From: a virus
Reading direction: 5' to 3' (one strand)
Virus record (IMG/VR): IMGVR_UViG_3300029923_000876
Location: 1 to 41,025 of that record
Length of the DNA: 41,025 nt
This document shows, in pieces, positions 6,249-33,434 of the stretch; positions within the stretch are counted from its first letter, which is position 1, and each line of letters opens with the position of its first letter. The position numbers and the translations under genes were made by a program. The notes under the pieces were generated by a model. That model made no database searches, had not been told where the DNA came from, and saw only the letters and a program-made list of their open reading frames with translations.

Positions 6249-6704
6249 TTAGTGTTTAAATGTTTTATCTTCAATCCCTGTAGGGCTATCAGTTGTTATC
6301 GTTATCGGAGCTCCAAGTCCATTAAGGGCTGTTGATATTGTAGTTAAGTCGGTTTTAACTTTCGCCATCCAAGCCGTAAGCACATTTATGTTTACCAGTC
6401 CACCATTTGAGCCTCCATTCACGGTAATATGATCTATTTCGGTGAACTGAAATACGGTTAAATCCCGGCTTTCTCCACCCATATCAATAATACCGACAAC
6501 CGAACCCACAACCGGGGTAATTATTAGCTTATTTGTGCTATCATTACTCACGGCGTTAAGACGAATATCAGGAATCTGCAAGCTGTTTACCTGCACGGTG
6601 CAAGTGTCGCCCTCCACGCTCACCACTTCCGCCGTGAAGGCACCAATTTCAGAGCCGCCGGCTATCTTTCGTATTATTTCCTTTATCTTTTGCGCGTTTG
6701 TCAT
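6249..6704 (-). CDS. Baseplate spike/assembly protein, gpV/gp45-like
   Basis: A 151-aa protein with an OB-fold-like beta-rich middle (AEVVSVEGDTCTVQVNSLQI then IITPVVGSVVGIIDMGG) and a Gly/Asn/Thr-rich section before a C-terminal HIS/THR-rich end. This matches the size and layout of small central spike proteins of contractile phages (Mu gp45). It sits between the hub gene (upstream) and the gp25-like gene (downstream). The spike would form the membrane-piercing tip of the tail. Confidence 0.72.
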   Translation of the reverse strand: MTNAQKIKEIIRKIAGGSEIGAFTAEVVSVEGDTCTVQVNSLQIPDIRLNAVSNDSTNKLIITPVVGSVVGIIDMGGESRDLTVFQFTEIDHITVNGGSNGGLVNINVLTAWMAKVKTDLTTISTALNGLGAPITITTDSPTGIEDKTFKH

Positions 6705-6707
6705 ACG

Positions 6708-7682
6708 TTAGCTTATTTTTTTGCCTACCGTTACCTTTCGCTTGCCGCCCGATTGCGAAAATTCCGTTTCCACGGCCAACACGTAATAATTGCCTTTTTT
6801 CACTGGATAATCCGCATCATATATACTTACCTTATAGCCCGCGTTGCAATAAGGTACCAGCCAACCGTCAAAGCTGCCTTCATATCCGGTATATTGTTTC
6901 GCTTTCAATGCTTCATTAGCCATTTTCAGCAAACTGTCTTTTTTGGAAACGCCCGATATTTTCAGCTTCATTTTATCACCACCTGTAGTTCCTACCTCAA
7001 CCTTGATAGTTTTACCATCAGCCCCTTTGCCTTCCACCTCAACAAGATATTTTCTATCAGACTCTATTTTGTATTTCAAATCCGATTTTTCAATGTTCAC
7101 CGCGAAATTATAATCAGCCGTACCGAATATCTCACTATATTGCGGGTGTACGTGCAGTACGGTGCCTTTCATATACACGTTTGGTTTAGCCTCCTCCTGT
7201 ATCTTTTTCAGCACATCATAGCCGGTGGTCGAACGGATTACGAACTTATCGTAACTGAAATCGTAATCGCAGGATAGGGTAAAGCCTTTTCCTATTTTAG
7301 TGTTTACATAGGTCAAAATTTCGTTTACGGATATTCCTTTTGCTTTTGCGGTTTTATTTATTAATACGACATCGGCAAGGCTTACGCGATAATTAAATAG
7401 CTCGTCCTCACAATTCAGGGTAATAGCCCCGTCGTCCGTGCTAATGCTTTCAATGTAGCCCTCAAATTCCGTTACCAGGTTATCATCATAACCCAGCTTG
7501 ATAAGTACCTTGTCACCTCGCGCTATTTTACTTTCCACTTCCAAATATTTGTTAAAAACAGACCCCGGTAACAAGATAGTGGCCGTGTCAGACAGTTGTT
7601 CGACGGATGTTTTTATTTTTACCGAATCGACCATCATCAATTGATAATTGCCTATTTCTATGTGGAAATTCATGTTTAACAT
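6708..7682 (-). CDS. Baseplate hub protein (gpD/Mu gp44-like)
   Basis: A 324-aa hub protein of the late-control-D/Mu gp44 group. Typical parts are an N-terminal beta domain with 'TSVEQLSDTATILLPG' and 'GDKVLIKLGYDD', a middle section 'DVLKKIQEEAKPNVYMKGTV' and 'SDLKYKIESDRKYLVEVEGK', and a C-terminal swap domain ending in a basic KRKVTVGKKIS. It would trimerise on the spike and start the tail tube. The start at 7682 (MLNMNF) or 7673 (MNF) cannot be separated. It follows a short gap with a hairpin after the DUF6046-like gene. Confidence 0.78.
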   Translation of the reverse strand: MLNMNFHIEIGNYQLMMVDSVKIKTSVEQLSDTATILLPGSVFNKYLEVESKIARGDKVLIKLGYDDNLVTEFEGYIESISTDDGAITLNCEDELFNYRVSLADVVLINKTAKAKGISVNEILTYVNTKIGKGFTLSCDYDFSYDKFVIRSTTGYDVLKKIQEEAKPNVYMKGTVLHVHPQYSEIFGTADYNFAVNIEKSDLKYKIESDRKYLVEVEGKGADGKTIKVEVGTTGGDKMKLKISGVSKKDSLLKMANEALKAKQYTGYEGSFDGWLVPYCNAGYKVSIYDADYPVKKGNYYVLAVETEFSQSGGKRKVTVGKKIS

Positions 7683-8393: not shown

Positions 8394-10202
8394 TTATTGT
8401 GCGCTTTCGGCAGCATAAAGTACTCGCATCAGAGCCTCCTCCACCTGCCGGGTTACATCCTGTGCATTTTCTTTTATGCCTCCTTGGAACACGATGTTTT
8501 CTACCATCTTGCCCAGGTTTATTGTTATTTGCGTGTTGCGGGTACCACCGCTGGCCACGCTTTCAGCCGTTTTCTTGTTTTTTGCCTTTCCATCACCGCC
8601 GGCAGCAGCGGCACCTGCCGTGCCGGGTATCTTTGCCGGGGCTATTCCGCCTGCACTTTTAGCCGTCTTTTCCGCGTTACTTTCGGGGGTTATCAGGTTA
8701 AGGCTTTTTCTTAAGTTAGCTATCATCTGCTCACCTCTTCCTGCTAAATATCCAAGTCCTGGTATATGTGCTAACAAACCTAATAATTGTTGCACGGGAT
8801 AAAGTATCGCATCGAGCAGAACGACACCAACACGTTTCAAACCACGGATAATATGTCCACCCGAAAATGCCTGGTCAATTGAATCCCAGTTATTCTTTAA
8901 GGCCATTACCATATTAACTATTAAACCAATAGGACCTAACACGAGCAACAAAGCAGCCCCCCATTTTGAATAAGCATTGATTGCCGACCATACTATAGCA
9001 ACTAAGGCTGCAATAGCCAGCACAATTAATCCCACAGGATTCGCATCCATAGCCGCGTTAAGAATCCATTGTGCCGCGGCAAATAACTTCTCTTTCACGC
9101 TTGCAGTTAAAAAGGCATCGCCCAATACATTTATTGAAATAAGTTGAATGCCCTGCCATAAGGCTGCCAGCTTTGTGATAGCTATCATACCAAGCGCAAT
9201 AGCTTTATATGCAGCAATAGCTCCTATCAAGCTCCAAATAATTGGATTGCCATCTTTAATGCCTTTAAATATCCAAGCTATGATATTAAATAGCGGCTTT
9301 AACACAACGGAAACTAAGCCCTTGAGCACTCCACCCACAAACCCTGCGATGCTCGCAATATCCGCCTTGTTTTCTTCCAAATAGTCTCCGAGTTCGGAAA
9401 ACAGGCCACTCACGTAATTGAAAACAGGTTCAAGTGCACCGGCTACGGTTAGCAGGGTGGTGCCTACTTTATCCTTGAATTCATCCATCATTTTTTTGTA
9501 ATGGATTAACGGGGTGGCATCGTAAGCCGACTTTGCCGAACCGCCGAATTCGCTTTGTAATTCGTTGAGTATAAGCTGCTGTGCCGCTTCTTTTTTCCCG
9601 GCTTCAACCAGCTTTTTCACGTGTTCTGTTTGTTCTGCCGACAAATTCACGCCTACACGCCGTAGGGCTGTCATGCCCAGTACCGGGTCTTGAAGTGCTT
9701 TGCCTACTTGGATGGCAGTGCTCTGCACGTCCTGATGCATACGGGTGGCCATGTCGGCTACGATTTGCGAGGCTGCACCGAAATTCTTTTTTGTTATGCC
9801 GGGAAAAGTAACGAGTAACGAACTCATTTTCATAAGTTCTTCACGCGTGAAGGTGGATGAATTATAAATACCCTTGTTTATCTTCTCAATATCGGCAAAG
9901 CCAACGCCCGCCGCGTATCCGGTACTTTCCAACCCTGTTTTAACCTGTTCTTCCGCTACTTTAAGTTTACTCGCCTCTTCAAAAGCACTGGTAAAATATT
10001 CGGCTATTTTAAACAAGCCGAGACCTACACCCATGGTCATAGCGATGCTATTCAACGAGGTAAAAGCCCCTTTAAGTTTTGAGGTAGAAGCATGTAACTT
10101 TTCGCTTTCATTTTTCGTATGCGAAAATTCCTTACCTATTTTTTCAAGACCGCCGGTCATGGCATCTTTCAAGGTCATTACAAATTCTACCGCTCCACTC
10201 AT
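8394..10202 (-). CDS. Tail tape measure protein
   Basis: A 602-aa tape measure protein setting tail length. The N-terminus has the typical 'VEFVMTLKDAMTGGLEKIGKEFS' helix and heptad-like stretches. A conserved block follows (VTFPGITKKNFGAASQIVADMATRM, then ALQDPVLGMTALRRVGVNLSAEQ), as in lambda-type and Mu-type tape measures. Several hydrophobic helices lie in the middle (residues about 280-460), and the C-terminus is disordered and Ala/Lys-rich. It follows the two chaperone ORFs, the standard order chaperone - frameshift product - tape measure. At 602 aa it implies a fairly short contractile tail. Confidence 0.9.
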   Translation of the reverse strand: MSGAVEFVMTLKDAMTGGLEKIGKEFSHTKNESEKLHASTSKLKGAFTSLNSIAMTMGVGLGLFKIAEYFTSAFEEASKLKVAEEQVKTGLESTGYAAGVGFADIEKINKGIYNSSTFTREELMKMSSLLVTFPGITKKNFGAASQIVADMATRMHQDVQSTAIQVGKALQDPVLGMTALRRVGVNLSAEQTEHVKKLVEAGKKEAAQQLILNELQSEFGGSAKSAYDATPLIHYKKMMDEFKDKVGTTLLTVAGALEPVFNYVSGLFSELGDYLEENKADIASIAGFVGGVLKGLVSVVLKPLFNIIAWIFKGIKDGNPIIWSLIGAIAAYKAIALGMIAITKLAALWQGIQLISINVLGDAFLTASVKEKLFAAAQWILNAAMDANPVGLIVLAIAALVAIVWSAINAYSKWGAALLLVLGPIGLIVNMVMALKNNWDSIDQAFSGGHIIRGLKRVGVVLLDAILYPVQQLLGLLAHIPGLGYLAGRGEQMIANLRKSLNLITPESNAEKTAKSAGGIAPAKIPGTAGAAAAGGDGKAKNKKTAESVASGGTRNTQITINLGKMVENIVFQGGIKENAQDVTRQVEEALMRVLYAAESAQ

Positions 10203-10203
10203 T

Positions 10204-10958
10204 TTATCTACCTGCTTTTTCTAGTTCTTTACTTTCCAACTGGCGGTATAACCATACATCAAGTACGGATTCGCACCAAACATCATCTTTTAATTTTTCG
10301 GGGTGTATTTCATGTAGGTAGAATCGGATTAGTGAATGTCCGGCGCGGATAGTTATTTTATCAATAAATTCATCCAGCTTGCTTTGTTCTTCACCGCTTT
10401 CAACCTGCCAAAACACAGAGCCCTTTAGGCGTTTTTTATGCTTACCAGGTGCTTTTCCCGTAAGTCCTTCAAGATACGCAACACGGGCATGTGGTAATCC
10501 AGGTTCGAGGCATCCTTTAGTTCTGAATCACCATCCAACCACATGGCTTCAAGCATGTTTTGCTGGGTTTTAAATGGAATATTGTCCGGGTTATTCCGTT
10601 CTGCATTGGTAGTTATTTCAATGCTTACCGGGCGTAGGCGACAGGCTTTGTCCAACACGGTTATCTTATAGGCATTGCCGTCTTTTTCCACTTCTGCATC
10701 GGCGTAGGTAATAAAGGCATCTATTTCATCGGCTATGTCCTCAATGTAAGGGCTTTCAAGCAACGCCTTATCCCCTGCCACATGGCAATTAATAGCCATA
10801 GCCCGCTTAAATTCGGTTGTGCTCTTTTCAATTGCTTTCAGTGCAAAACGCCAAATTCTCAAATCCGGCTTACAGAAATAGCCGGTAAGGCCATCAATGG
10901 TTATAATCTTTATATCCCCGTATTTTTCTTTTAGTTCGTCGATATTTACTTTTTCCAT
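10204..10958 (-). CDS. Predicted -1 frameshift tail assembly chaperone fusion
   Basis: The predicted extended tail assembly chaperone, about 251 aa, made by -1 ribosomal frameshifting from the 177-aa ORF (10425-10958) into a second ORF ending at 10204. The second ORF (FWQVESGEEQSKLDEF... to ESKELEKAGR, 70 aa) has no ATG; its only candidate initiator is a GTG at 10416. Its frame is exactly -1 relative to the first ORF and is open from the slippery site onward. In long-tailed phages such G/GT pairs sit just before the tape measure gene, as here, and chaperone the tape measure and tube. The frameshift is inferred from sequence. Confidence 0.7.
10425..10958 (-). CDS. Tail assembly chaperone (short, unshifted form)
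   Basis: A 177-aa cytoplasmic protein between the tail tube and tape measure genes, the position of the Mu gp41/lambda gpG group. It is helical, acidic at the N-terminus (KVNIDELKEKYGDIKIITID), and ends in SIKNA just after an A_AAA_AAC heptamer. This would be the abundant short form of the chaperone pair; the longer form arises by frameshift. Sequence similarity to lambda G is not evident, so the assignment relies on position and the frameshift architecture. Confidence 0.72.
   Translation of the reverse strand: MEKVNIDELKEKYGDIKIITIDGLTGYFCKPDLRIWRFALKAIEKSTTEFKRAMAINCHVAGDKALLESPYIEDIADEIDAFITYADAEVEKDGNAYKITVLDKACRLRPVSIEITTNAERNNPDNIPFKTQQNMLEAMWLDGDSELKDASNLDYHMPVLRILKDLREKHLVSIKNA
10431..10437 (-). 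promoter_or_regulatory. Programmed -1 frameshift slippery heptamer A_AAA_AAC
   Basis: On the coding (minus) strand the end of the first chaperone ORF reads ATA AAA AAC GCC TAA. The heptamer A AAA AAC is in the correct zero-frame phase for -1 slippage, and the stop codon follows after one sense codon. Slippage gives N-R-L-K-G-S-V-F-W and runs straight into the second ORF. No clear downstream pseudoknot is visible by eye. Confidence 0.75.
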
Positions 10959-10972
10959 GATATTATTTTAGA

Positions 10973-11392
10973 TTATTTAGGTAATGTTCTTTTTCGAAGG
11001 AAAATAAAAGGCAGTTTTATTTCCGTGAATTTATCTCCTTGTTTCCAGTCCTTTGCGTCCTCGGTAAATTGAACGCCTTGTAATACATCGGTAATGATCA
11101 CATCGCCTTTTGACGGATTTCCATAACACACAACGCAATTGAGCTGCAAGCTCAACACCGAACCATCCGTTGCATTCGCTCGTAAGGTTTCATAATCGCT
11201 CTGCAACATAGAAAGTTCGCCGTCGAATGTTATGTTTCCTTTTTGTATTTTCAGCGGTAGGTTTCCTTTACCAAATACCGCCTCTTTTTCCTGCTTTGAG
11301 CCATATTTTACGCCCCTGATTCCGGTAATGTCTTTACCGCCTACTAGCAGGGTGATGTCCGCCCATTCATATTCTCTACTATCAAATGCCAT
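10973..11392 (-). CDS. Tail tube protein (Mu gpM-like)
   Basis: A 139-aa tail tube protein located directly downstream of the sheath gene, as in Mu (L then M). The beta-rich sequence fits the tube family: an opening SREYEWADITLLVGGKDI, a central GNITFDGELSMLQSDYETL and a closing QGDKFTEIKLPFIFLRK. These proteins stack as hexameric rings inside the sheath. It is followed by the chaperone ORFs and tape measure. Confidence 0.82.
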   Translation of the reverse strand: MAFDSREYEWADITLLVGGKDITGIRGVKYGSKQEKEAVFGKGNLPLKIQKGNITFDGELSMLQSDYETLRANATDGSVLSLQLNCVVCYGNPSKGDVIITDVLQGVQFTEDAKDWKQGDKFTEIKLPFIFLRKRTLPK

Positions 11393-11404: not shown

Positions 11405-12607
11405 TTAAGATGTTGTTTTAAATCCCAAATAAATATTGATGTATTTAGCGTAACCATACGGTTTTACCCTCAATTCTATCTTTATAGTCGAGTTAGTAAC
11501 CACATCCTGCGTTTCATCAATGTAGGTTTCCACACCGGTATCTGTTGCATCGCCGGGGTCGTTACCCAGGTTACCGTAAGCTGTCATTTGGTTTTCAATA
11601 GCTACATCTATTTCATTCTGAATGTGCTTCACGATAGCCGCCGGCATGGTACCTGAATCGGTTACGGGAATTTCATCCGAAAGCTCATTTACGGCTGTTT
11701 TATAGGCTATACGGTAAGCCTTATCTATCACGGCACGGCGAGGGATAAGAGCATAATCATCGGTAGCCGATGTTGCCAGCTTGTCATCACTCCAGTAGTA
11801 ACCCGATTTACCGATAAATGTACGGGCGGTGATATAGCCGGAATTGTGTATAGTAGCCGGTTTTCCGTTTTCGGCAGCCACACTTCCTATATAAATATTA
11901 TCTACCCCTATAGCCCCCGTTTTCACACGAGCAATAGAGCGTTGCACGGGTATGGCCGCGATACGTCCGGCAAGCAAGCCAACACAGGCAGCGGTACTGG
12001 ATACAACGGTGTCGGCTATTAACACACCTATACGGTTGTCCGATCCGGTGGCCAAATCGGCCAAATCGGAAGGTGTACCGGAATAATGGCGGCCTTCGAT
12101 AAGAATAAAAAAGGGAGCATACAGGCTTTCGGTGTAGTATTCCGCTAAAGCCTGTCCTTTGGATAGTGCCGTTGGCACGTCACTATCCAGCCCATTCAAA
12201 ATGGTTGCTTCATAGCCTGTAGGGTCTGATTTTGCTACAATAAGGTAAGTAATAGCCCCTTTGGCACTCTCTATCAGCTTCGCGGCATATTCACCATCCT
12301 TATCCAGTATTTCCGAAACCTTTAGCGTGTTAGCTACACCCATAATCCACATAACGGAATCCAGCGGGGCTTCGGTATAGAATTCGGACACGGCTTTATA
12401 TAGCCGGGCGTTATTGCCAGATGTAACCCCTAAATCCCCCAAATCAGCAAGCGAGGTTAATTGATACGCCGTGCCGAGTACAAAGGTGGTACTCACGGAA
12501 ACGGCACTAACTACGAGACCACAAACGCGGTCGTCAATGGCATCGCTGGCACCGATGTTGCCGTTTTCAAAATAAATTTTCACACTGGGTAATCCTGTAT
12601 TTGCCAT
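11405..12607 (-). CDS. Contractile tail sheath protein (DUF2586/Mu gpL-like)
   Basis: A tail sheath of about 400 aa. The start is taken as the ATG at 12607 (MANTGLPSVK), one base after the stop of the preceding gene; the longer reading from 12619 would overlap it. Family landmarks include the N-terminal VYDDRVCGLVVSAVS-like region (SDAIDDRVCGLVVSAVSVST), a middle LADLATGSDNRIGVLIADTV and VGLLAGRIAAIPVQRSIARV, and a C-terminal INIYLGFKTTS after a beta strand. It is a Bacteroidetes version of the DUF2586 sheath and proves a myovirus-type contractile tail. Confidence 0.85.
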   Translation of the reverse strand: MANTGLPSVKIYFENGNIGASDAIDDRVCGLVVSAVSVSTTFVLGTAYQLTSLADLGDLGVTSGNNARLYKAVSEFYTEAPLDSVMWIMGVANTLKVSEILDKDGEYAAKLIESAKGAITYLIVAKSDPTGYEATILNGLDSDVPTALSKGQALAEYYTESLYAPFFILIEGRHYSGTPSDLADLATGSDNRIGVLIADTVVSSTAACVGLLAGRIAAIPVQRSIARVKTGAIGVDNIYIGSVAAENGKPATIHNSGYITARTFIGKSGYYWSDDKLATSATDDYALIPRRAVIDKAYRIAYKTAVNELSDEIPVTDSGTMPAAIVKHIQNEIDVAIENQMTAYGNLGNDPGDATDTGVETYIDETQDVVTNSTIKIELRVKPYGYAKYINIYLGFKTTS

Positions 12608-12608
12608 T

Positions 12609-12995
12609 TTATTCAGCATTAAAAGTTTCTAATTCTCCACCTACTTTTTCCAAATGTCCTTCGGCTGATGTTTTTTGTGTAAACCAGTAGCCGTCTTTCG
12701 TTCGGTATATTTTTATCGCACCGCTGTTATTCATTAGCTGTTTTGCCAATGTCTGTTTTGCTGCCTGTTCTGCTGCCGCTTCGGTGTCAGCTTTAGTTGT
12801 ATCGGTTGCAGTAGTGTCGGTACCGGTAGTGTCAGCTTTAGTGGTATTGGTACCCGTAGTGTCTACTTTAGTGGTATCAGTTGCAGTAGTGTCGGTACCG
12901 GTAGTGTCTACTTTAGTGGTATCGGTTGCAGTAGTGTCGGTACCCGTAGCATTTGCTTTTGTAGTATCCGTTTCAATAGTTGAATCTTTTGCCAT
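12609..12995 (-). CDS. Repeat-bearing protein upstream of the sheath, unknown
   Basis: A 128-aa protein of two parts. Residues about 5-75 are a Thr/Asp-rich repeat with a 15-residue period (TDTTATDTTKVDTTG). Residues about 76-128 form a short folded-looking tail (IYRTKDGYWFTQKTSAEGHLEK). The repeat is extremely hydrophilic and probably disordered. Mu has a small unknown gene (gp38) in the same position ahead of the sheath. It could be a virion decoration or a chaperone. The 86-aa gene at 13808-14068 ends in a similar Thr/Asp/Ala tail, so the two may be related by low-complexity spread. Function unknown. Confidence 0.6.
   Translation of the reverse strand: MAKDSTIETDTTKANATGTDTTATDTTKVDTTGTDTTATDTTKVDTTGTNTTKADTTGTDTTATDTTKADTEAAAEQAAKQTLAKQLMNNSGAIKIYRTKDGYWFTQKTSAEGHLEKVGGELETFNAE
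12786..12960. repeat. 45-bp tandem coding repeat
   Basis: About four imperfect copies of a 45-bp unit within the gene above; on the plus strand, stretches such as GTAGTGTCGGTACC and GTGGTATCGGTTGCAG recur. Some copies are identical over more than 30 bases, pointing to recent duplication or slippage. Unit length is a multiple of three, so copy-number change keeps the frame. Confidence 0.85.
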
Positions 12996-14095: not shown

Positions 14096-14317
14096 TCATT
14101 TATCAGTTTTTGTTAGTTGAGCCGTAACCCCGGTAAATGCAGCTGCAACAATGATGTATTTAAACACATCAAGTAATGTTTCCGGTAAATTCAACCCCAT
14201 TGTTGAGTTTGCCGTCCACGCAGCAGTAGCACCAGAAGCTATGTATATAGCTATGCTTCTTACTTTTTTAAAGAAATCGGGCGTTTCAGCTTTCAGCCTG
14301 TTAATTAATTCTTTCAT
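14096..14317 (-). CDS. Holin-like small membrane protein
   Basis: A 73-aa protein with two predicted membrane segments (IAIYIASGATAAWTANSTMG at about residues 22-41 and YIIVAAAFTGVTAQL at about 54-68) and a charged N-terminus (MKELINRLKAETPDFFKKVR). Size, hydropathy and location directly after the muramidase genes fit a holin that opens the inner membrane to release the lysin. The ATG overlaps the stop of the upstream gene by one base. The holin role is inferred, since holins share little sequence. Confidence 0.7.
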   Translation of the reverse strand: MKELINRLKAETPDFFKKVRSIAIYIASGATAAWTANSTMGLNLPETLLDVFKYIIVAAAFTGVTAQLTKTDK

Positions 14318-14562
14318 TATTCAAATACTCGTGTTGTCCAGCCTTTGTAGAATTTCCATTGTCCGGGGTTACGTTTACAGATAGTGTAATAGCGTTTAAG
14401 CCTTTCGTACTTATATAGCTTAATAAAGTTTTCTGAGGTCATTACAGGCCTCTTGTTGAGCTTTTCGATGCTATCTTTCAGTATAGCTACGTTATCTTTT
14501 ACCGGGGCTTTTGCAAAGCAAATAGCCGGGATAAAAAGGAGTAGAAATATCAGTTTTTTCAT
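14317..14562 (-). CDS. Exported C-terminal part of a split GH108 muramidase
   Basis: An 81-aa protein with a clear signal peptide (MKKLIFLLLFIPAICFA) followed by about 64 residues. Its end, ENFIKLYKYERLKRYYTICK then NPGQWKFYKGWTTRVFE, matches the closing segment of GH108 muramidases (peptidoglycan-binding type 3 domain: F...R..YY......N..Q..F..GW..R). The preceding gene carries the catalytic half and stops just where this part would continue. The ATG lies in a TAATG overlap, so the two are translationally coupled. Either the lysin works as two chains or this is a rearranged remnant. Confidence 0.65.
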   Translation of the reverse strand: MKKLIFLLLFIPAICFAKAPVKDNVAILKDSIEKLNKRPVMTSENFIKLYKYERLKRYYTICKRNPGQWKFYKGWTTRVFE

Positions 14563-14978
14563 TAGGCTAAATCGTTAATATGTCCTATTGTATTACCCTT
14601 ATCCCATGTACCCAATACAGTACCGGCCATTGATAAGGCAGGAGCTACACCGTTATTTATCGCTGTATCCATCAGCTCGTCGGCAATCGCTTGATTGTCG
14701 ATGGCATCACCGCCTACTTTATCCCAAAATTCCGTTTTGTAAAAAGAATTTATCAGTTGCAATAAAGTAGCATCCTGCTTGAGTGAGTAAGGAAAATTAG
14801 CATCTTTTTTATGTCTATCAACTAATGCCCAGCCTTGCCAACCGGGATTCATATTGCGGGCAATGCCTGCCACGGTTTCGCCTCCGCGGTCGCGGGGTGT
14901 GTTGTTATATCCAAGCTTTTTATTTGTAGCTCCTTCGTTAGCAAGCGCTTTATTCAGTGCTTCATTCAAGTTTGCCAT
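14562..14978 (-). CDS. GH108-family muramidase, catalytic part (endolysin)
   Basis: A 138-aa protein with the N-terminal domain of the ZliS/GH108 lysozyme family, cleaving the glycan of peptidoglycan. The catalytic glutamate is E15 in LANEGATN, followed by the family block NTPRDRGGETVAGIARNMNP (residues 26-45) and later FYKTEFWDKVGGDAI and ELMDTAINNGV. Usual members are about 170-200 aa because of a C-terminal binding domain; this one stops early in that domain (NTIGHINDLA). The missing end appears in the next gene. It has no signal peptide and would rely on the holin. Confidence 0.85.
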   Translation of the reverse strand: MANLNEALNKALANEGATNKKLGYNNTPRDRGGETVAGIARNMNPGWQGWALVDRHKKDANFPYSLKQDATLLQLINSFYKTEFWDKVGGDAIDNQAIADELMDTAINNGVAPALSMAGTVLGTWDKGNTIGHINDLA

Positions 14979-31271: not shown

Positions 31272-33434
31272 TTAATTTCCAAAATCGACCGATTTACTTA
31301 TTAAATCAAAGAAGGCATCGGTGGTGTTTTTATTTTCTTTTACCCTTTGTTTTTCCAGTTTGCGAAAATCCGCTTGTTCCTGTTTCACCGTTTCCAAATC
31401 GGGCTCGTAATACTCTCCGTGAATAGGACTTACGCTTTCGGGTTGAGCATCAAGTTCAGCAGCTGTTTTATCCACATTTATAATTGCCAGTTTTGCCAAA
31501 TGCTGTTGTTTTTCCCTTGTCATTTTATCAAACACGGCCTGTTGCTTGTTGAATTCCAGTGCGGCCTGCTCGTCAGCTTCCGTGCGCTCCACTTTTGCCT
31601 CGTTGTAGGGTTCTATCGCTTTGCAGGTACAGATATACCGCCCGTTTTGATAGATATACACCTCGTTGATGTCCTTTGCCTCCAAATAATACGCCTGCAC
31701 GGTAAGACTCTTTAGCTTTTTAATTATTTCCGCGCTGGGTAACGCGTATTTTTTTCCTTGCACCGTAACCCATTGCGAGCGATGTACTGCTGCTTTGTCG
31801 CTACATTCGCCCAAATGGAACGCGAGTACCGGCATCGGATGACGGGGCAAATTAGGATTCACGTTCTCAACGAGTACCTCCCAGCGTGTTTTGCCGGGGA
31901 AACGATTTTGGTCGGGGTGCAAACTGTTGTTGTAATTATTAATATCCTCCTCCTCGTTTGCAATAATGTCTTTCATCGTGTAGCGGACATTGTTTTTATC
32001 TGTGTTTAGCCGGTTTGCTTCCATCCGTGCGAAGGGGCGGCGTTGGAATCCTTCCCGCTTGGCCTGTTGCCCGTATTTTTTTTGTTTAATGAAGCCCTCA
32101 GCTCTTTTGCCTTGTGGCATCCCACCGCGCTGAAAAGAAACGAAAGGAAATAGCGTGCCGGCGGTAAGTAGGTCCTCCTCAAAAGAGCCATCCGGGTTTT
32201 CTTTCCCGGTCAAGGTGTTAGCTAAATGTTGCTCGCACTCTATTTCAGCAGGAAAACCCCAATCATTGCGAATGCAGAGTTTCATCATATCCTTTAGGGA
32301 GTCTATAAGCATATCCACGCCCTTATCTTTTGCATACGCACGGCCTACCACGCAGGTACTAAGGGTGTCAAAAACCTGATAAGCCCAAACACGGGTACCA
32401 TCCGCCCGCCGAAATGGTACCGCGATGTCGTCCATAGTTAGTTTGCTTAAACTGTATCTTGCAGCATGGCGATGATGAATAGGCCTATTGCGTGAATTCC
32501 AAAACAATTCCGAATTTCGACCCTTCTCTAAGGCGTTGGAATTCTCCAGTTTTTTGATGTAATTTTGCACGGTGGTACCACTAATAGAAATAGGATTTCC
32601 GTGTTTATCAAAAAAATCTTCCCGGTTAAAGAACTCACCCGTTTTAATATTAACCAAATCAAGCCCTCCACCAAGAAACTGCAAGTAAATGCCGTGCACG
32701 CTATTTGTTTCGCCGTATTTGCTCGTCATGTAAGGCTTTGTGTCCATGTAATGAATGGAAAGAAGTAAATCCTCCACCAGTTGCGTTACCTTTTTTGCGT
32801 TTTGGCTACCGAAATTTTTATGTATCAGCCCGGCGTACCCATCAGCATTGTATTTTTTGTATTGTCGCTCCAATACGCGTTCGTTTTCTGATAGAGAATG
32901 TGGATAAACGGGTGTGCCGTCAGCTGTTTTAAGCTTTCGTAAGTCTTTCACCGCTTCCACCAAACCCGGCCATGGGTTTTTCATTTTTCCGGCAATGATA
33001 GCCGCTATTTGTTTTTTCTTTTGTATCGCCAACTTGATAGCGTTAAGCACTTGCACGTTGGTGTAATATTCAGTTTGCACGTCGGCGGGCAATGACTTTT
33101 CATAACCTTGTTCGCCGTATGTATATTCAGCAAAATACTTTATCGCCTCGCTATCGGTTTGTATATAGCCTTTCAGCAAATTTTCTTTTATCAACTCGCG
33201 GGGATGACAGCCTAATTTGGATTCTACAGCCTGCTTTATGTCTATTCGTAAACTCTCATACTCAACCATTGCCCCAACACCGGAACCTCCACCTCTTACA
33301 ACCACTTCAATACGACCACGGGTATTTAGCTTATCATAATTAGACTTGCTTATTACGCCGCCCAACTCTGTAGAGTAGAGCCATCGAGCGGCAACACAAA
33401 TCCTTTTATTTATAAGTCTAAAATATTCGTCCAT
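31272..33434 (-). CDS. MuA-like DDE transposase
   Basis: A 720-aa transposase. The N-terminus carries DNA-binding domains (residues 1-250). The catalytic core begins with MDDIAVPFRRADGTRVWAYQ (first acidic residue near 333) and VFDTLSTCVVGRAYA; a WGFPAEIECEQHL segment lies where the second acidic residue is expected, and KRAEGFIKQ (Glu near 444) is the likely third. The C-terminal part has the beta-barrel (WVTVQGKKYALPS) and charged tail seen in MuA. It would drive integration and replicative transposition. It fixes the element as a transposable (Mu-like) phage. Size is normal (MuA 663 aa). Confidence 0.9.
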   Translation of the reverse strand: MDEYFRLINKRICVAARWLYSTELGGVISKSNYDKLNTRGRIEVVVRGGGSGVGAMVEYESLRIDIKQAVESKLGCHPRELIKENLLKGYIQTDSEAIKYFAEYTYGEQGYEKSLPADVQTEYYTNVQVLNAIKLAIQKKKQIAAIIAGKMKNPWPGLVEAVKDLRKLKTADGTPVYPHSLSENERVLERQYKKYNADGYAGLIHKNFGSQNAKKVTQLVEDLLLSIHYMDTKPYMTSKYGETNSVHGIYLQFLGGGLDLVNIKTGEFFNREDFFDKHGNPISISGTTVQNYIKKLENSNALEKGRNSELFWNSRNRPIHHRHAARYSLSKLTMDDIAVPFRRADGTRVWAYQVFDTLSTCVVGRAYAKDKGVDMLIDSLKDMMKLCIRNDWGFPAEIECEQHLANTLTGKENPDGSFEEDLLTAGTLFPFVSFQRGGMPQGKRAEGFIKQKKYGQQAKREGFQRRPFARMEANRLNTDKNNVRYTMKDIIANEEEDINNYNNSLHPDQNRFPGKTRWEVLVENVNPNLPRHPMPVLAFHLGECSDKAAVHRSQWVTVQGKKYALPSAEIIKKLKSLTVQAYYLEAKDINEVYIYQNGRYICTCKAIEPYNEAKVERTEADEQAALEFNKQQAVFDKMTREKQQHLAKLAIINVDKTAAELDAQPESVSPIHGEYYEPDLETVKQEQADFRKLEKQRVKENKNTTDAFFDLISKSVDFGN

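Follow-up and report, generated by a model that had tools for sequence, protein, structure and literature searches.

Within a 41,025 nucleotide stretch of viral DNA (hereafter ‘the window’), the space between a probable tail tube gene and the tape measure gene is occupied by two short minus-strand reading frames, the second of which is offset by one base from the first. Are these two frames joined by a programmed -1 ribosomal frameshift, as are the G and T frames of phage lambda, or is the second expressed separately, or joined to the first by other means? A first-pass annotation had favored the G/GT arrangement. Comparison with relatives supports that interpretation through the gene order, a -1 ORF that has no conserved start, a conserved slip site and in-frame fusion of the same two segments elsewhere; we consider a lambda G/GT-type -1 frameshift in the window to be very probable.

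The locus and its gene neighborhood

The minus strand encodes, in order, the tail sheath, tube, G, T and tape measure, followed by baseplate and hub genes. The sheath (DUF2586; 11405-12619) matches PF10758 with an E value of 5.1e-63, as well as phrog_907 (tail sheath). The protein encoded directly upstream of G (10973-11392) is the probable tail tube, a role assigned by its position: it matches phrog_4579 (tail protein) and is annotated as a tail protein in Peternella_1, and it matches phrog_9206 (labelled major head protein) better than phrog_4579. The tape measure protein (8394-10202) matches several PHROG tape-measure families and also TMP_2 (E = 1.3e-6), the latter match falling slightly short of the Pfam cut-off. 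An ORF upstream of the sheath (12609-12995) consists largely of TDTTKADTTGTDTT-type repeats.

The description of this virus as a Mu-like phage is borne out by its portal (Portal_Mu, E = 1.1e-79), Gp36 (E = 1.1e-14) and F genes (the last a weak match to Phage_Mu_F), which are accompanied by an AAA/TniB-like ATPase. A 720-residue ORF adjoining that ATPase (31272-33434), in the position of a Mu-like transposase, has no Pfam match; we regard it as a putative transposase, the Mu-like assignment being made from gene content.

The G ORF (10425-10958) encodes a 177-residue zero-frame product, a predicted tail assembly chaperone that matches phrog_19076 (E = 4e-14). Its 3′ end reads GTA AGC ATA AAA AAC GCC TAA on the minus strand (ATA through TAA corresponding to 10425-10439), placing the heptamer A_AAA_AAC (10431-10437) in X_XXY_YYZ phase and one codon before the stop (GCC TAA, 10425-10430, with TAA at 10425-10427). 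The next ORF, the T segment (10204-10431), lies in the -1 frame, open from the heptamer for 75 codons before its own TAA (10204-10206); its peptide, RLKGSVFW...EKAGR, would be translated only after a shift, as part of a GT product. It contains no ATG, and its only start-like codons are one GTG (10414-10416, codon 6) and one late TTG. Phase, spacing, frame and lack of ATG all agree with what had been reported, while the gap to the tape measure start, given earlier as two bases, is a single base (10203) preceding the ATG at 10200-10202. Since AAAAAAC is abundant in the window (44 occurrences versus 29 expected), the heptamer by itself proves nothing, and the case rests on relatives.

The G protein is assigned as a tandem duplication because each half matches the single-domain family and because of the branching of the two copies in a tree. 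Using hmmsearch with a single-domain G profile, and hhalign of first or second G halves, each against single-domain G, we found that residues 3-92 (10683-10952) score 43.3 bits with an hhalign probability of 98.4, and that residues 93-166 (10461-10682) score 21.9 bits with a probability of 95.2 (E = 2.6e-8). Direct hhalign comparison of the two halves of duplicated G against each other was not significant. A model of the protein (pLDDT 87) shows a hairpin-helix unit that is repeated. In the tree, the first copies from the window subfamily and from a second group, of prophages, cluster together, as do the second copies; this is consistent with one duplication, tentatively so because branches in the tree are long. 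The prophage G proteins (L175-L180, L225, L249 and L250; 184-207 residues) carry the same tandem duplication.

All single-domain G proteins match phrog_19076, a family whose function is labelled unknown. Searches of G and T against Pfam, NCBIfam and named PHROGs returned no tail chaperone family above curated cut-offs; G matches phrog_19076 only, in keeping with the earlier remark that likeness to known chaperones is not obvious. Foldseek comparison of the G model with RBSTP2171 (3fgx, DUF6848) gave a probability of 1.00 and a TM score of 0.65 by target length, with a non-significant E value of 0.096 (0.2 for the G profile against 3fgx). Comparison with the HK97 tail chaperone (2ob9) was not significant either (probability 0.41-0.51, E = 1.4-2.2). 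We treat the likeness of the modelled fold to 3fgx and, weakly, to 2ob9 as leads, not proof.

Conservation of the -1 reading frame and the slip site

A direct search of viral contigs with window G recovered two copies, one identical and one close; the same search of genomes and phages recovered none. With the tube protein as query, 28 viral loci were recovered, and its alignment then yielded 36 genome loci and 80 viral loci. G was located by profile, in the equivalent position, in 156 of the 160 loci of the redundant set, leaving 107 non-redundant relatives. All 36 loci from named genomes belong to Bacteroidota, so the host of the window phage is presumably also a member of that phylum.

The relative frame of the two ORFs is kept almost throughout this family: in 106/107 non-redundant relatives, at least 45 uninterrupted -1-frame codons follow the G stop, whereas the +1 frame is open to that extent in only five. 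The single exception is L126, whose G ORF terminates early. T peptides could be aligned for 105 loci, and the window T fits their common block (approximately NAQLRYYLHI.DPDSLSDEEWA.R.KELEWIRK.E) with its own conserved stretch, LIRFYLH..P..L.D..W......R..E (10225-10350), in which W52 is invariant and which is modelled as three helices (pLDDT 87.5). T has no PHROG match and appears in no library that we searched, and its model has no significant structural neighbor. The dN/dS ratio of T is 0.23 between the window and its close relative L003, and 0.23-0.38 within the five-member close group (the window, L003, L008, L086 and L089) where it could be computed; the other reading frames of the same region, again for the window versus L003, look non-coding. 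In the alignments, the -1 ORF is under purifying selection.

These same alignments bear on whether T might be translated alone, with no fusion protein being made, through direct initiation or re-initiation at a codon such as the GTG at 10414-10416. Coupled re-initiation is common at gene overlaps, and this codon lies in frame shortly after the G stop. However, the GTG is present only in the window and L003; it is missing from L008, L086 and L089, and T of L008 has no ATG, GTG or TTG at all. The residues RL[KT]G, encoded 5′ of the GTG, are kept in all five members of the close group, and T conservation includes the residues directly 3′ of the G stop. More widely, an independent T start was looked for among homologues and none is conserved: in 55 of 100 relatives, the interval from the preceding -1-frame stop to the T block contains no ATG, GTG or TTG. 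In 35/106 loci the -1 frame is closed no more than three codons before T begins. Initiation would also assign no role to the A_AAR-type slip codons that are selected upstream of the stop. We therefore consider separate translation of T very unlikely, and return to the -1 frameshift.

In almost every locus, a slip site is found at one shared codon position. The heptamer A_AAA_AAC is invariant in the close group, so the expectation that homologues would retain it holds for that subfamily (5/5), and only in part for the wider family, which often swaps in other sites near the same position. These comprise G_GAA_AAG (30 loci), A_AAA_AAG (28), G_GTA_AAG (13), another base before GTA AAG (5), A_AAA_AAA (8), G_GGG_GAR (5) and G_GGA_AAG (2), besides the five with A_AAA_AAC, the rest being ones and twos; L101, L107 and L143 have A_AAT_TTA one codon later. 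The G_GGG_GAR site (L004, L010, L044, L050 and L059) is unusual and could re-pair with G-U wobble after a shift. Four loci (L020, L124, L144 and L219) have the -1 ORF but show no evident slip motif where one would be expected; two of them, L124 and L144, end in TTY TRA and perhaps slip at the stop.

Codon usage at the site is strongly constrained and far from neutral. Lysine in the P site is AAA in 41/41 cases (15.1 expected) and P-site valine is GTA in 22/22 (7.2 expected), while the preceding isoleucine is ATA in 29/30 (8.5 expected) and A-site lysine is AAG in 79/88 (39.0 expected), the P values of this test being overstated because the loci share ancestry. Bias at the last sense codon, which overlaps T, may stem from dual coding. 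Taken jointly, the heptamer in five close loci, the retained -1 ORF and the codon bias are not a chance pattern; the geometry, its conservation, and selection acting on the slip site as well as both ORFs are all legible in the compared sequences.

The six consecutive A residues at the window site raise another route to a fusion protein, namely transcriptional slippage on the A run, with GT made from the slipped message. Such slippage is a known alternative route to fusions of this type (PMC5009743), yet many relatives have the same geometry without a long homopolymer (G_GAA_AAG, G_GTA_AAG and G_GGA_AAG), a preference for in-phase codons accords with re-pairing of tRNAs, and the SD-like element found at a fixed distance in many relatives would act on ribosomes. 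We judge this route very unlikely as well. Finally, although an indel can yield two adjacent ORFs one base apart, the idea that a single gene was broken by sequencing error or a recent frameshift mutation is refuted by the occurrence of the same offset at the same codon in more than 100 divergent loci, from isolates as well as genomes, and is hardly credible.

Eleven further G homologues (L181-L189, L232 and L236) end instead in GAR/GAY TTT TTT CG[CT] GCN TAR and are followed by a +1-frame (or -2) ORF of 56-58 codons that extends up to a next gene whose beginning resembles a tape measure. The product of that ORF is unrelated to family T by hhalign. Judged by these reading frames, the direction of the shift seems to have switched within one homologous family.

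Natural in-frame G-T fusions are found in L238-L242. In L276, a Flavobacteriales tail-like island without an obvious tape measure, an in-frame G-T fusion and a separate G-only gene (6546-7016, 14262-14720) follow the sheath and tube. G003, G798, G806, G826 and G830 likewise have G matches of both kinds, which lie near one another in all but one of these five. In such islands, frameshifting appears to have given way to a G gene and a G-T fusion gene encoded separately.

An SD-like element upstream of the slip site in many relatives

Stimulatory signals were sought at the window site and across the family. The window site has no unusual downstream fold (dinucleotide-shuffle z of -0.2 to +1.5) and no match to Rfam, and neither it nor its subfamily has an upstream SD-like element. 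Downstream structure across 106 loci shows no excess over control windows. In E. coli, A_AAA_AAC is among the low-efficiency heptamers, which counts against a -1 shift, as do the lack of a stimulator at the window site, the relatives without an obvious motif and the absence of a match to a named chaperone.

Across the wider family, an SD-like GGAGG or AGGAG lies 20 to 4 nucleotides upstream of the site in 40/106 loci, versus 16.6 expected from synonymous resampling, and 38 of the 40 start exactly 13 nucleotides upstream. In the A_AAA_AAG/A class the element is present in 29/36 loci (about 12 expected), a number reached in none of a million simulations. An SD-like sequence precedes the G start codon in 1/106 loci. 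Bacteroidota ribosomes rarely use an SD for ordinary initiation. The element in relatives is notable because these ribosomes hide the anti-SD.

In Bacteroidia, whose ribosomes sequester the anti-SD, 72 percent of genomes nonetheless retain prfB frameshift sites with an SD; the prfB site is missing from Weeksellaceae, a family reported to include hosts with altered anti-SD (PMC8710568). Among host-sampled loci, the element occurs in 0/20 from Weeksellaceae, 8/29 from Bacteroidales, 1/13 from other Flavobacteriales and 4/25 from Sphingobacteriales, a breakdown that is only suggestive because numbers are small and codon usage differs. Experiments in E. coli have been cited beside an SD-like element at slip sites (PMC4066793). 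The spacing and enrichment of the element raise the possibility, which we hold tentatively and rate slightly below even, that elongating Bacteroidota ribosomes read an internal SD, and that this drives the -1 shift in many relatives. If true, SD-dependent recoding in Bacteroidota would comprise two classes, this one and prfB.

Proposed mechanism and relation to known systems

By analogy with lambda (PMC5009743), most ribosomes would terminate at the TAA and release the 177-residue chaperone G, while a minority positioned on AAA AAC would slip back by one base, bypass the stop and add 75 residues. The resulting GT product would be about 251 residues in length, comprising G through Asn176 and the 75 residues of T. 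Many G molecules and few GT would coat the tape measure protein, with the T part recruiting tube subunits. The slippage, its rate and the chaperone roles are all drawn from that analogy.

The window and lambda have in common the order tube, G, T and tape measure, a T frame at -1 without its own conserved start, and a slip site at the 3′ end of G that is conserved among relatives. Unlike lambda, the window phage is contractile and Mu-like, its site is A_AAA_AAC, its G is a tandem duplicate, and its proteins lack sequence matches to the Pfam, NCBIfam or named PHROG chaperone families. Mu itself is also a contractile, transposable phage with a frameshift in its tail assembly genes, but it shifts by -2 (PMC5009743), whereas the window family is predicted to shift by -1. 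The prfB sites of Bacteroidia likewise have an SD-like element upstream of the slip site, in organisms whose ribosomes conceal the anti-SD (PMC8710568); that shift is +1 and serves host regulation, while the one proposed here is -1 and serves phage tail assembly, with the element found in relatives and not in the window.

Three isolated phages of the Winoviridae (Peternella_1, FPSV-S1 and vB_FspM_lotta8-1) share the sheath-tube-G-T-tape measure order, a slip site (here A_AAA_AAG) with the -1 ORF, and the T motif, and have low sequence identity to the window. G is annotated as hypothetical in these isolates, and T is absent from the annotation of Peternella_1 and FPSV-S1 and truncated from an internal ATG in lotta8-1. 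The available portions of texts on Bacteroidetes Mu-like phages (PMC7761591, PMC12135933 and PMC8776804) and on Baltic Flavobacterium phages (PMC7077304) make no mention of this frameshift. The frameshift device itself is already known; as far as the papers compared here show, the new elements are its presence and conservation in this group of Bacteroidota phages, a T domain overlooked in isolates, the duplication of G, and the SD-like sequence carried by many relatives.

The analysis points to a likely function for phrog_19076, a widespread unnamed family, and brings to light a partner domain, T, that annotation has missed or truncated in Bacteroidota phages, including growable isolates. The G/GT device of lambda would thereby extend to Bacteroidota phages of the Mu-like type, whereas Mu itself shifts by -2. 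The family may also offer natural tests of the rules of recoding: a single position is occupied by different slip sites, an SD-like element is selected in hosts whose anti-SD is hidden, one sublineage apparently shifts +1, and some islands have separate G and G-T fusion genes.
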